Source: an uncultured Fimbriimonadaceae bacterium | Lineage (GTDB): Bacteria > Armatimonadota > Fimbriimonadia > Fimbriimonadales > Fimbriimonadaceae | Length of the DNA stretch: 41,477 nucleotides | Assembly (NCBI GenBank): GCA_937961665.1 | Contig: CALGMO010000105.1 | Coordinates: 1-41,477, forward strand | Direction of reading: 5' to 3' | Shown: positions 35,173-38,342 of the stretch, piece by piece | How positions within the stretch are numbered: the stretch's first letter is position 1 | Layout: every line of letters starts with the position of its first letter | Notes under the pieces: generated by a model | Told to the model about the DNA's origin: nothing | The model's database searches: none | What the model saw: only the letters and a program-made list of their open reading frames with translations | Made by a program: the position numbers and the translations under genes

Positions 35173-35874
35173 TCACGCCCTCTGGGCGCGGTAGCGGGCC
35201 GCTTGCTCCACGAAAGCCCGGAACAGCCGGTCGCTGGTCGGCGAGCCGAGCGTCCGCTCGGGGTGCCACTGGATGCCCAGCCGGAACGGATGACGCGCCG
35301 ATTCGATGGCCTCGACCGTGCCGTCCTCGTGGCGCGCCGAGACGACGAACCCCTCGGCCAAGTCCCGGATCGCTTGGTGGTGGTAGCTTCGGCCCTCGGC
35401 CGTGTCGCCCAGAATCCCGTGCAGCCGTGTGCCGGGGACGACGTCGTAGGTCTGCATCGTTCCCCCGCTGTGCTCGCCGTGGCCGACCACGTCCGGGACG
35501 TGCTGGTGCAGCGTGCCCCCTGCCACGACGTTCAGCAGCTGGCACCCGTAGCAGATCCCGAGAATCGGCAGTTCCTTCGGCGCTCGGAGCACGTAGGCTC
35601 GGTCCGACTCGAAGCGCGCCGGGTCGATGAGCGAAGTCTTCTCGTGGCGCCTTTCGCCCCAGAGGCGGGGATCGATGTCGTCGCCGCCCGGCACCAGCAG
35701 GCCGTCCACCAGCGGCAGGACGTCGGCTGGGTCGGCGTTCGGCGGCAACAGGATCGGCGCCGCGCCCTCGCGCTCCACAGCCTCCGCGTAGTTCCAGTCG
35801 AGGCGAATGGTGCCCGTTCGCGTGCCTTCGGTCTTGCGCTCGGACGACGTGGTGATGCCGATGATCGGTTTCAT
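35173..35874 (-). CDS. Gamma-glutamyl-gamma-aminobutyrate hydrolase family protein (class I GATase-like)
   Basis: A 233-residue peptidase C26-type enzyme. It carries the nucleophile Cys108 in GICYGCQ, VPGGDDIDP, and the His/Glu pair in GIQWHPE. Relatives (PuuD) cut gamma-glutamyl-GABA in putrescine breakdown, but other members act on other gamma-glutamyl compounds. No other puu genes are present. Its ATG overlaps the stop of the upstream E2 gene (ATGA), an unusual pairing that implies joint translation. Confidence 0.88.
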   Translation of the reverse strand: MKPIIGITTSSERKTEGTRTGTIRLDWNYAEAVEREGAAPILLPPNADPADVLPLVDGLLVPGGDDIDPRLWGERRHEKTSLIDPARFESDRAYVLRAPKELPILGICYGCQLLNVVAGGTLHQHVPDVVGHGEHSGGTMQTYDVVPGTRLHGILGDTAEGRSYHHQAIRDLAEGFVVSARHEDGTVEAIESARHPFRLGIQWHPERTLGSPTSDRLFRAFVEQAARYRAQRA

Positions 35875-37046
35875 GGGATGGGGATGAGGGCTTCGATGTC
35901 CGCCAGGTTGGCCTTGACCTCGTTCACGAACGCGGCCGCGCCGACGCCGTTCATAAGGCGGTGGTCGAACGCCAGGGTGAGGTGGACGACCTTGGCGAGG
36001 ACGGGACCGTTCTCCGAATCGACCCAGCTCCAGTGCGGCTCGCCGAGCAGCAGAGTGGCCACGGCTGGCGGCACGACCACGGGGTAGCCGTCCCAGACAC
36101 CCTGCGACTGGAGGTTGGTGAGGGAGAGCGTGACGGCGTCGCTGGCTTGATCGGCTCCCTGCCGGGCCTGCAGGATCGCGCTGCGGACGGCCTCGGCGAA
36201 CGGCCGCCACTCCAGCTGGTCGGCGCCCGGCACGGCCGCGAGCACCAGCTCGTCCCCCTCTCGCGCCACCGCGATGCCGAGCGTCAAGGTCCGGTGGATT
36301 CGGAGGGTCGAGTCTCCCACGAGCTGGGTGCGCAGAGCCGGGTGGTTGCGCACCGCCTTGGCCGCGGCGAAGGCGAAGACGGTGAACGCCGAGGGCTGGA
36401 AGTCGCCGCCGGCGGCGGCCATGCGCGCCTTCAGCCGCTCGACGGGACCCCAAGGAGCCACGACGGTGAGCGCGCTCGGCACGGCGAGCTGATGGGCCCG
36501 AGAGAGGCGGCTGGCCAGCACCCGCTGCCGCTGGGGCATGGGCCGATCCTCATAGGCTTCGCCGGCGGGCGAGCGGGAGAGCAGGTAGGCGTCGACGTCG
36601 GCCTCCGTGAGGCGCCCGCCCGCCCTCGGGATGGATCGGATCTCCTCGTCCGTCAGGCCCTTCGACCGCGCGTAGGCCACGGTCCGGGGCGCGGCCTCCG
36701 CGTTGCGCAGGGGTCCCCCGGCCGGGACGGTCGGCGCTTCGGTTCGTGCCGGGGCGGTCTCTTGGGGTGCGGGCGCCGACGGAGCCGGTTCGGCGGTGGC
36801 CTCGTCCTCCGTCTCGATGCGGGCGATCTCGGCGCCGATGGGAAGGATGTCGTCTGGGCCGGCCGTCCACTCCAACAGCACACCGGAGAACGGAGACTCG
36901 ACGTCCAGCACGGCCTTGTCGGTCTCCATCTGATAGATCGGCTCGTCCCGGAGGACGAGATCGCCGGGCTGCTTGAGCAAGGCGACGACCCGGGCCTCCT
37001 GGAGGCCCTCGCCCATCTGGGGGATGCGGACGGACACGACTGCCAT
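35871..37046 (-). CDS. Lipoyl-dependent 2-oxoacid dehydrogenase E2 acyltransferase
   Basis: A 391-residue E2 subunit. Residues 1-80 form the lipoyl domain with the lipoyl lysine K44 in METDKAVLDVE; a Pro/Ala/Glu-rich linker follows; residues about 115-150 form the E1/E3-binding domain (AYARSKGLTDEEIRSIPRAG); the catalytic core (about 165-391) ends with AFDHRLMNGVGAAAFVNEV, containing the DHRxxxG active-site motif. The match is to pyruvate or branched-chain 2-oxoacid dehydrogenase E2; the substrate cannot be told. No E1 or E3 gene is adjacent, which is atypical. lipB elsewhere in the window could modify it. TAAACT predicts a near-leaderless start. Confidence 0.87.
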   Translation of the reverse strand: MAVVSVRIPQMGEGLQEARVVALLKQPGDLVLRDEPIYQMETDKAVLDVESPFSGVLLEWTAGPDDILPIGAEIARIETEDEATAEPAPSAPAPQETAPARTEAPTVPAGGPLRNAEAAPRTVAYARSKGLTDEEIRSIPRAGGRLTEADVDAYLLSRSPAGEAYEDRPMPQRQRVLASRLSRAHQLAVPSALTVVAPWGPVERLKARMAAAGGDFQPSAFTVFAFAAAKAVRNHPALRTQLVGDSTLRIHRTLTLGIAVAREGDELVLAAVPGADQLEWRPFAEAVRSAILQARQGADQASDAVTLSLTNLQSQGVWDGYPVVVPPAVATLLLGEPHWSWVDSENGPVLAKVVHLTLAFDHRLMNGVGAAAFVNEVKANLADIEALIPIP

Positions 37047-37229
37047 GGGTCGCGTCAGTTTACTTGCCGGAAGCCTTCGAACCGACGGACCACCGAAAGC
37101 GAGGCCGCCCCAAGGACCACACGCGGTGGCCCATGGGGCGACAACCATCATGATAGGACGCTTTCGGGCGTTTTGGAGGGATGATTTCCCCAGTATTGGT
37201 GCGGGTTTCTCCGCGGCCTCGCGGCGGAG
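37047..37229. other. Intergenic stretch between the E2 and tgt genes
   Basis: 183 bases with no gene I can support. It contains the E2 promoter (TAAACT) and, at the tgt end, an inverted repeat CTCCGC/GCGGAG (about 37210-37230) overlapping the tgt stop, which may be a weak terminator. The minus frame is open through it but starts no plausible protein. Confidence 0.6.
37057..37062 (-). promoter_or_regulatory. -10 box TAAACT for the E2-hydrolase unit
   Basis: TAAACT on the minus strand predicts +1 near 37050, about 4 bases before the ATG at 37046. Confidence 0.4.
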
Positions 37230-38342
37230 TCAGGCCCGCGCGTACCGCTCCATCAGCCGGGGCCAGGAGCCCTCCTCGATCGCCCCTCGGATCTCCTCCA
37301 TGAGTCGGGCGTAGAACGCCAGATTGTGCAGGCTGGCGATCCGGGCCCCCAAGTCCTCTCCGGCCTTGAAGAGGTGACGGACGTAGGCCGCGGAGTAGCG
37401 GCGGGTCTCCGGGAACACGCTGTCCGGGTCGAACGGACCGTCGTGGCGCTCCCACTTGGCGTTCAGAACGTTCACGCGGCCGTGGAGGGTGTAGAGGCAG
37501 TGGTGCCGAGCCATGCGAGTCGGCAGAACGCAGTCGAACAGGTCCACGCCGCACGACACGGCGTGCAGGATGTCCTGCGGATGGCCGACGCCCATCAGAT
37601 AGCGCGCCTTGTCCTCCGGCAGGAGCGGAGCCGTGTGGGCGACCACGGGCCTCTGGAGCTCGGTCGGTTCGCCGACGCTGACGCCACCGATCGCGAAGCC
37701 CTCGAAGGGCAACGAGGCGATCTGCCCGACGGAGCGCTCGCGCAGGTCGAGGTGCACGCCGCCCTGCACGATGCCGAAGACGGCCTGCCCCGCCGCGCGG
37801 GCCCTCACACTGCGCTCGGCCCAGCGCGCCGTGCGCTCCACCGCCTCCTCCGCGAGCGAGCGGGGGCACGGGTACGACGCGCAGTGGTCCAACACCATGC
37901 TGACATCGACGCCCAGCTCGGCTTGGATTTCGAGGGCCCGCTCGGGGGTCAGCTCCACGAGCGAGCCGTCGAGGTGGGAGCGGAAGACCACCCCGCGGTC
38001 GTCCATCCGGGCCATCTTGGACAGCGACATCGCCTGGAAGCCGCCGGAGTCGGTGAGGATGGCCCCCTGCCACGACGTGAACCGGTGCAACCCGCCCATC
38101 TCGCGGACCAGCGCGCTGCCAGGCCGCAGCGCCAAGTGGTAGGTGTTGGCCAGAACGAGCTGGTATCCGAGCCGCTCGAGGTCCTCGAAGCCGACCAGCC
38201 GCACCGCTCCCCGCGTGCCGACCGGCATGAACGCGGGCGTTTCGACGGTCCCATGGGGTGTGTGCAGCCTTCCGCGCCTCGCCCCGGTGTGGGGGCAGAC
38301 GGCCAGAAGCTCGAACCTCACGGTGGGAGTCACGGGGCTCAT
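37230..38342 (-). CDS. tgt: tRNA-guanine transglycosylase lacking the zinc cysteines
   Basis: Bacterial TGT swaps guanine 34 of GUN-anticodon tRNAs for preQ1 (queuosine pathway). The 370-residue protein has the TIM-barrel landmarks: TPAFMPVGTRGAVR, ILTDSGGFQAMSLSKM (catalytic Asp98), FGIVQGG, YLMGVGHPQDIL and the nucleophile Asp270 in LFDCVLPTRMARH. The structural zinc site normally reads CxCxxC plus His. Here S308, F310 and T313 stand in place of the cysteines, although the His-Asn-Leu (H339) remains. The reading frame is continuous. The start is ATG 38342 overlapping the flippase stop, or GTG 38333 seven bases after a CATAAT box. Confidence 0.9.
   Translation of the reverse strand: MSPVTPTVRFELLAVCPHTGARRGRLHTPHGTVETPAFMPVGTRGAVRLVGFEDLERLGYQLVLANTYHLALRPGSALVREMGGLHRFTSWQGAILTDSGGFQAMSLSKMARMDDRGVVFRSHLDGSLVELTPERALEIQAELGVDVSMVLDHCASYPCPRSLAEEAVERTARWAERSVRARAAGQAVFGIVQGGVHLDLRERSVGQIASLPFEGFAIGGVSVGEPTELQRPVVAHTAPLLPEDKARYLMGVGHPQDILHAVSCGVDLFDCVLPTRMARHHCLYTLHGRVNVLNAKWERHDGPFDPDSVFPETRRYSAAYVRHLFKAGEDLGARIASLHNLAFYARLMEEIRGAIEEGSWPRLMERYARA

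Follow-up and report, generated by a model that had tools for sequence, protein, structure and literature searches.

The stretch of DNA analysed here (the window) comprises 41,477 nucleotides of an uncultured Fimbriimonadaceae bacterium and carries a tgt gene on its minus strand. The gene and the residues relevant to this study are the following:

37230..38342, minus strand: tgt, encoding tRNA-guanosine(34) preQ1 transglycosylase, 370 aa (ATG at 38342, stop at 37230; TIGR00430, PF01702)
38049..38051, minus strand: D98, second catalytic Asp (Z. mobilis D102), by alignment
37533..37535, minus strand: D270, catalytic nucleophile (Z. mobilis D280), by alignment
37404..37421, minus strand: degenerated zinc-ligand segment S308-V-F310-P-E-T313 replacing C-x-C-x-x-C, by alignment; conserved in the clade
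37374..37397, minus strand: Y316-S-A-A-Y320-V-R-H323, dimer hot-spot helix (Z. mobilis W326, Y330, H333), by alignment and PMC5395182
37326..37328, minus strand: H339, the kept fourth zinc-ligand position, by alignment; invariant in the clade

The frame is open from start to stop, and its product scores 442.4 bits against the TIGR00430 equivalog model (cut-off 306.75) and 452 bits against PF01702. It is the single PF01702 match in its own genome, a 142-contig draft. The protein carries the catalytic Asp pair and the preQ1 recognition residues, is predicted by AlphaFold to adopt the Tgt TIM-barrel fold, and is nested as an ortholog among bacterial Tgts in a tree of 83 sequences. From the ligand set of zinc-type Tgts it has the His (H339) and none of the three Cys; we therefore file it as a zinc-site-less Tgt variant and not as a zinc-type Tgt. 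At 35871-37151 on the same strand lies an acyltransferase (E2) with a lipoyl domain, whose catalytic motif DHRLMNG has Asn for the Asp of HxxxD.

Residues were assigned by aligning the window Tgt with the Tgts of E. coli and Z. mobilis, the latter being 43-44% identical to it. These reference proteins belong to TIGR00430 and PF01702 and are structurally represented by 1pud and related entries. Their zinc ligands (C302, C304, C307 and H333 in E. coli; C318, C320, C323 and H349 in Z. mobilis) fall on S308, F310, T313 and H339 of the window Tgt, which thus differs from them by the exchange of three of four ligands and resembles them in its whole fold, catalytic Asp pair, preQ1 pocket and dimer hot spot. 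An earlier note, made from the DNA letters, had placed the same three residues at the Cys positions and listed D98, D270 and the His as kept, and the alignment agrees with it on each of them. The motif DPDSVFPETRRYSAAYVRHLFKAGE likewise lies within 37356-37460, where that note had put it. The preQ1 pocket is intact (D152, C154, Q193, G220, V223 and M250), and the residues of the dimer hot spot defined in PMC5395182 are retained as F88, Y316, Y320 and H323. Two further differences were seen: L231 of the reference Tgt is V221 in the window Tgt, and beside the base-binding Asp, H153 (37884-37886, minus strand) gives Asp-His-Cys where E. coli and Z. mobilis have Asp-Glu-Cys.

We then sampled relatives outward from the window's own genus. 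CxCxxC is absent from all 61 Tgts read directly in the families f1 and f5 of Fimbriimonadales (Armatimonadota), the window included, and nearly all of them carry a segment like S-x-F-P-x-T with small variations. A DNA pattern for the canonical motif found no match in any of the 93 f1 and f5 genomes, bar one divergent second copy in a congener (G001, 73% complete). This second, zinc-type tgt (L032; G001:C25:7705-8823) lies on another contig, is 48% identical, has a GC content of 65% against 70%, and is perhaps a contamination or a transferred copy. In the sister families f2, f3 and f4 the motif is kept, as it is in nearly all further Armatimonadota Tgts read, with the exception of f27 and f28. 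Among metagenome-assembled Fimbriimonadales genomes, which are the nearest named relatives, a Tgt 68% identical to that of the window lacks the motif (L060) and one 55% identical has it (L061). In other Armatimonadota families the DNA pattern had at first suggested a missing motif, but their Tgts have CxCxxC with a different residue downstream of it. The f27 and f28 Tgts (L165 and L167) read C-x-x-x-C-C (CDAWCC and CPEWCC), the second Cys being gone and an extra one standing one place before the third. The f35 motif CDCWCC holds both cysteines and is a possible intermediate for such a shifted zinc ligand.

Within the clade, conservation reaches at least 90% at S308 and F310, with Phe at position 310 in 21 of 21 rows. 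Position 313 varies between T, L, V, N, S and C, whereas every one of the 33 zinc-site-less Fimbriimonadales Tgts in alignment A2 has H339. Since the whole clade carries the same change, a sequencing error or frameshift is excluded as its cause. The earlier claim that no frameshift lies behind the loss therefore holds, and so does the claim of the loss itself: close relatives with CxCxxC had been named as what would refute it, and the relatives share the loss.

To place the loss in the history of the family, we used the tree of 83 Tgts, from which the motif and His columns had been removed beforehand. This tree groups the zinc-site-less Tgts of Fimbriimonadales in a single clade (bootstrap 100, SH-aLRT 95, present in 100% of 200 bootstrap trees), which is nested among zinc-type Armatimonadota Tgts beside f3, f4 and f2. 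Such a clade among zinc-type relatives fits one vertically inherited loss of CxCxxC in Fimbriimonadales. The alphaproteobacterial Tgts form a clade of their own (100/98), so that their loss of the motif (see below) is independent, and horizontal transfer from Alphaproteobacteria is ruled out by the tree. The full three-cysteine state changes at least six times on the tree.

Several observations suggest a working enzyme. Comparison of the window tgt with those of two congeners gave dN/dS values of 0.10 and 0.13, indicating purifying selection. QueA, which acts downstream on the product of Tgt, is encoded in 60 of the 61 relatives, among them each of the 50 near-complete genomes; QueC scores over its cut-off in the own genome, and QueE adjoins it. 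A second, zinc-type tgt that might do the work was looked for in the own genome, and none was found. Judging from the purifying selection, the sole genomic Tgt and the presence of queA, queC and queE, the best reading is that the window Tgt is probably a working, preQ1-inserting enzyme. AlphaFold predicted a confident Tgt fold (mean pLDDT 90.8; 82-84 for residues 301-320, the motif region) that superposes on Z. mobilis TGT with a Z-score of 52 and 1.4-1.6 Å over 364 residues; since the input alignment of 44 sequences was mostly zinc-type and metals are not modelled, this match is weak evidence for the zinc-free loop, and the model may copy the zinc-type fold from its homologues.

With this information at hand, we consider it likely that the window encodes the only, and functional, Tgt of its genome, which has lost the structural zinc site and has a metal-free core instead. 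The enzyme would swap G34 of GUN tRNAs for preQ1 in the usual way, by a double displacement at D270. The zinc site would have been lost in the common ancestor of the two Fimbriimonadales families, the three cysteines giving way to Ser, Phe and mostly Thr while the His was retained. Most likely, the S-x-F-P-x-T loop or turn forms a small metal-free core in place of the metal, in which F310 would be packed where zinc and thiolates used to be, with S308 and T313 possibly forming hydrogen bonds with the turn and with H339. The dimer interface and the tRNA-binding surface are shaped by the C-terminal subdomain, which this core would keep in place. The invariance of H339 points to a second role of this residue or to its participation in the new core. 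We infer that zinc is absent, that F310, S308 and T313 pack as described and that the window Tgt is active; the simplest reading is that the structural metal was replaced by a hydrophobic and hydrogen-bonded core. Of the two alternatives offered in the earlier note, a fold stabilised without zinc is thus supported, the evidence being a conserved clade, purifying selection, an unchanged predicted fold, catalytic and preQ1-pocket residues that are all in place, and a genome with queA, queC and queE; for the other, an altered substrate or partner, we see no evidence.

This second alternative deserves a closer inspection, as the subdomain with the lost site provides the dimer interface and the scaffold for tRNA binding (PMC6165067, PMC4425180), and as the clade shows several specific changes elsewhere in the protein (M105, V145, Q230, W297, A318 and W360). 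The loss could accordingly go with a change of quaternary structure, of the partner protein or of the tRNA target, the protein then being something other than a plain homodimeric preQ1 Tgt. However, C154 and V223 are those of a preQ1-type pocket, the hot-spot residues are retained, the TIGR00430 score is well over its cut-off, and queA, acting after Tgt, accompanies the gene in all 50 near-complete relatives, which makes such a change of role improbable. Slightly better placed, if still unlikely, is a metal that continues to be bound at the site through other ligands, for instance H339 together with carboxylates, a backbone group or a His from another part of the protein, perhaps holding zinc weakly or holding another metal. 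As H339 is still invariant despite the lost cysteines, a partial or different metal site is conceivable, and H260 occurs in 21 of 21 clade Tgts against 10 of 45 zinc-type Tgts. Yet the clade has gained no cysteine: only C154 and C271 are invariant, and both are equally invariant in zinc-type relatives, which also answers the earlier suggestion that the ligands might be present elsewhere. A relocated zinc site is therefore unlikely. Moreover, an invariant Phe at position 310 and six different residues at position 313 make a poor ligand set, and in rhizobial Tgts the His is gone as well.

Under zinc shortage, zinc proteins are known to be replaced by zinc-free versions, and the site could have been lost within a general zinc-sparing adaptation of these bacteria. 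Within the queuosine pathway, queD2 is under Zur control in some bacteria (PMC9508795). Against this, the four cysteines of QueC, which is a zinc enzyme of queuosine synthesis, are present at 30 of 30 loci (a pattern recognised 28 of them; the own genome and G002, with CRRC spacing, were read by eye), the C-x2-C...C...H set of ribosomal protein L36 is complete in 30 of 30, and the own genome has no second tgt of the zinc type. Because QueC and L36 keep their cysteines, general zinc saving is unlikely to be the reason for the loss, and we give it distinctly less credit than either of the preceding explanations. An assembly error or a decaying pseudogene might be suspected in a 142-contig draft, but the change is common to 61 of 61 Tgts of f1 and f5, the frame is intact and dN/dS is near 0.1, so that practically no weight falls on this explanation.

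The earlier note had described Tgts as holding zinc almost universally and had implied that the loss is unique. The first statement goes too far, as the motif is also missing from Alphaproteobacteria and from single Verrucomicrobia and Pelagibacteraceae Tgts, and the second is wrong, as the rhizobia have independently arrived at the same state. In the family of Brucella rhizosphaerae, 101 genomes were sampled, and none of the 50 Tgts read from them has CxCxxC; the typical sequence is S-x-C-P-A-A/T, and in most the His is also gone. Rhizobiales Tgts with this second, independent loss are L108, L131, L119, L178-L227 and L339. Intermediates at the four ligand places occur in Alphaproteobacteria as CCSH, SCSH, SCAN and SWAI. 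The Tgt of Sinorhizobium meliloti (CP090106.1, annotated tgt) has S, C, T and N there, and a QueA-like ORF lies directly upstream of its gene. Compared with the window Tgt, those of Rhizobiales (S. meliloti P0003, Brucella L108, Bradyrhizobium L119) are orthologous and have likewise lost CxCxxC, with Ser for the first Cys in both groups and Ala, Thr or Ser for the third in rhizobia. Unlike the window Tgt, they are of independent origin, usually keep the second Cys, have C-P-A-C as the ancestral context, and have usually lost the His (N, I or A).

In S. meliloti the Tgt is functional in vivo, as judged by genetics: in strain 1021, tgt is required for a queuosine-dependent phenotype, and the tgt mutant was not rescued by preQ1, whereas queC and queF mutants were (PMC3568095); our sequence is that of strain Ak57, and we assume the same protein type in both. 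In addition, an E. coli strain mutated in tgt partly regains Q when given the Tgt of B. henselae, which is counted with this group here by its order (PMC11570991). Zinc is mentioned in neither of the two papers (PMC3568095, PMC11570991).

Together with the Fimbriimonadales clade, these cases make it likely that Tgt can do without its structural zinc and that, on at least two occasions in bacteria, different metal-free cores have taken the place of the metal with full preQ1 transglycosylase function. Probably, these cores are S-x-F-P-x-T with the His kept in Fimbriimonadales and S-x-C-P-x-[A/T] with the His lost in Rhizobiales, and alphaproteobacterial forms such as CCSH and SCSH are likely to be living intermediates. 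The zinc of Tgt thus seems replaceable. Zinc-ligand mutants of E. coli Tgt were reportedly found impaired by Chong in 1995, which speaks against a zinc-free, active enzyme. So does the description of TGT as needing zinc for activity (PMC9508795). The zinc-binding domain is described as a TGT hallmark (PMC6165067), and reviews and structures treat it as such. A variant of the reverse kind in the same superfamily is QTRT2, a eukaryotic Tgt subunit whose zinc ligands are preserved but which is no longer catalytic (PMC6165067, PMC4425180).

The window Tgt is thus an ordinary enzyme in a zinc-site-less form that is real, conserved and a product of convergent evolution. The surrounding biology, queuosine synthesis, is ordinary as well, and what is of interest is that a supposedly essential site has been lost. 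In the literature searched, which lay largely outside subscription journals, we found no published account of a zinc-free Tgt or of CxCxxC loss, which may nevertheless have been noted before. Two large bacterial groups, one of them including the model organism S. meliloti, have Tgts that lack the full ligand set, and it becomes directly testable how a structural zinc site can be lost while function is kept. The finding bears on Tgt as a drug target, its dimer interface lying within the zinc subdomain, and cautions against CxCxxC as a criterion for annotating Tgt.

Two further observations concern the wider sampling. Tgts lacking CxCxxC were also seen in Verrucomicrobiales (L106, TACH at the ligand places), Pelagibacteraceae (L113, SNCH) and a low-GC Alphaproteobacteria genome (L276, LCSH), and are perhaps separate losses. 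Finally, the S. meliloti record CP090106.1 (L339), taken from PLSDB and named pSymB, measures 3.7 Mb, carries tgt, the queA-like ORF and coaD, and by its size and content looks like the chromosome.
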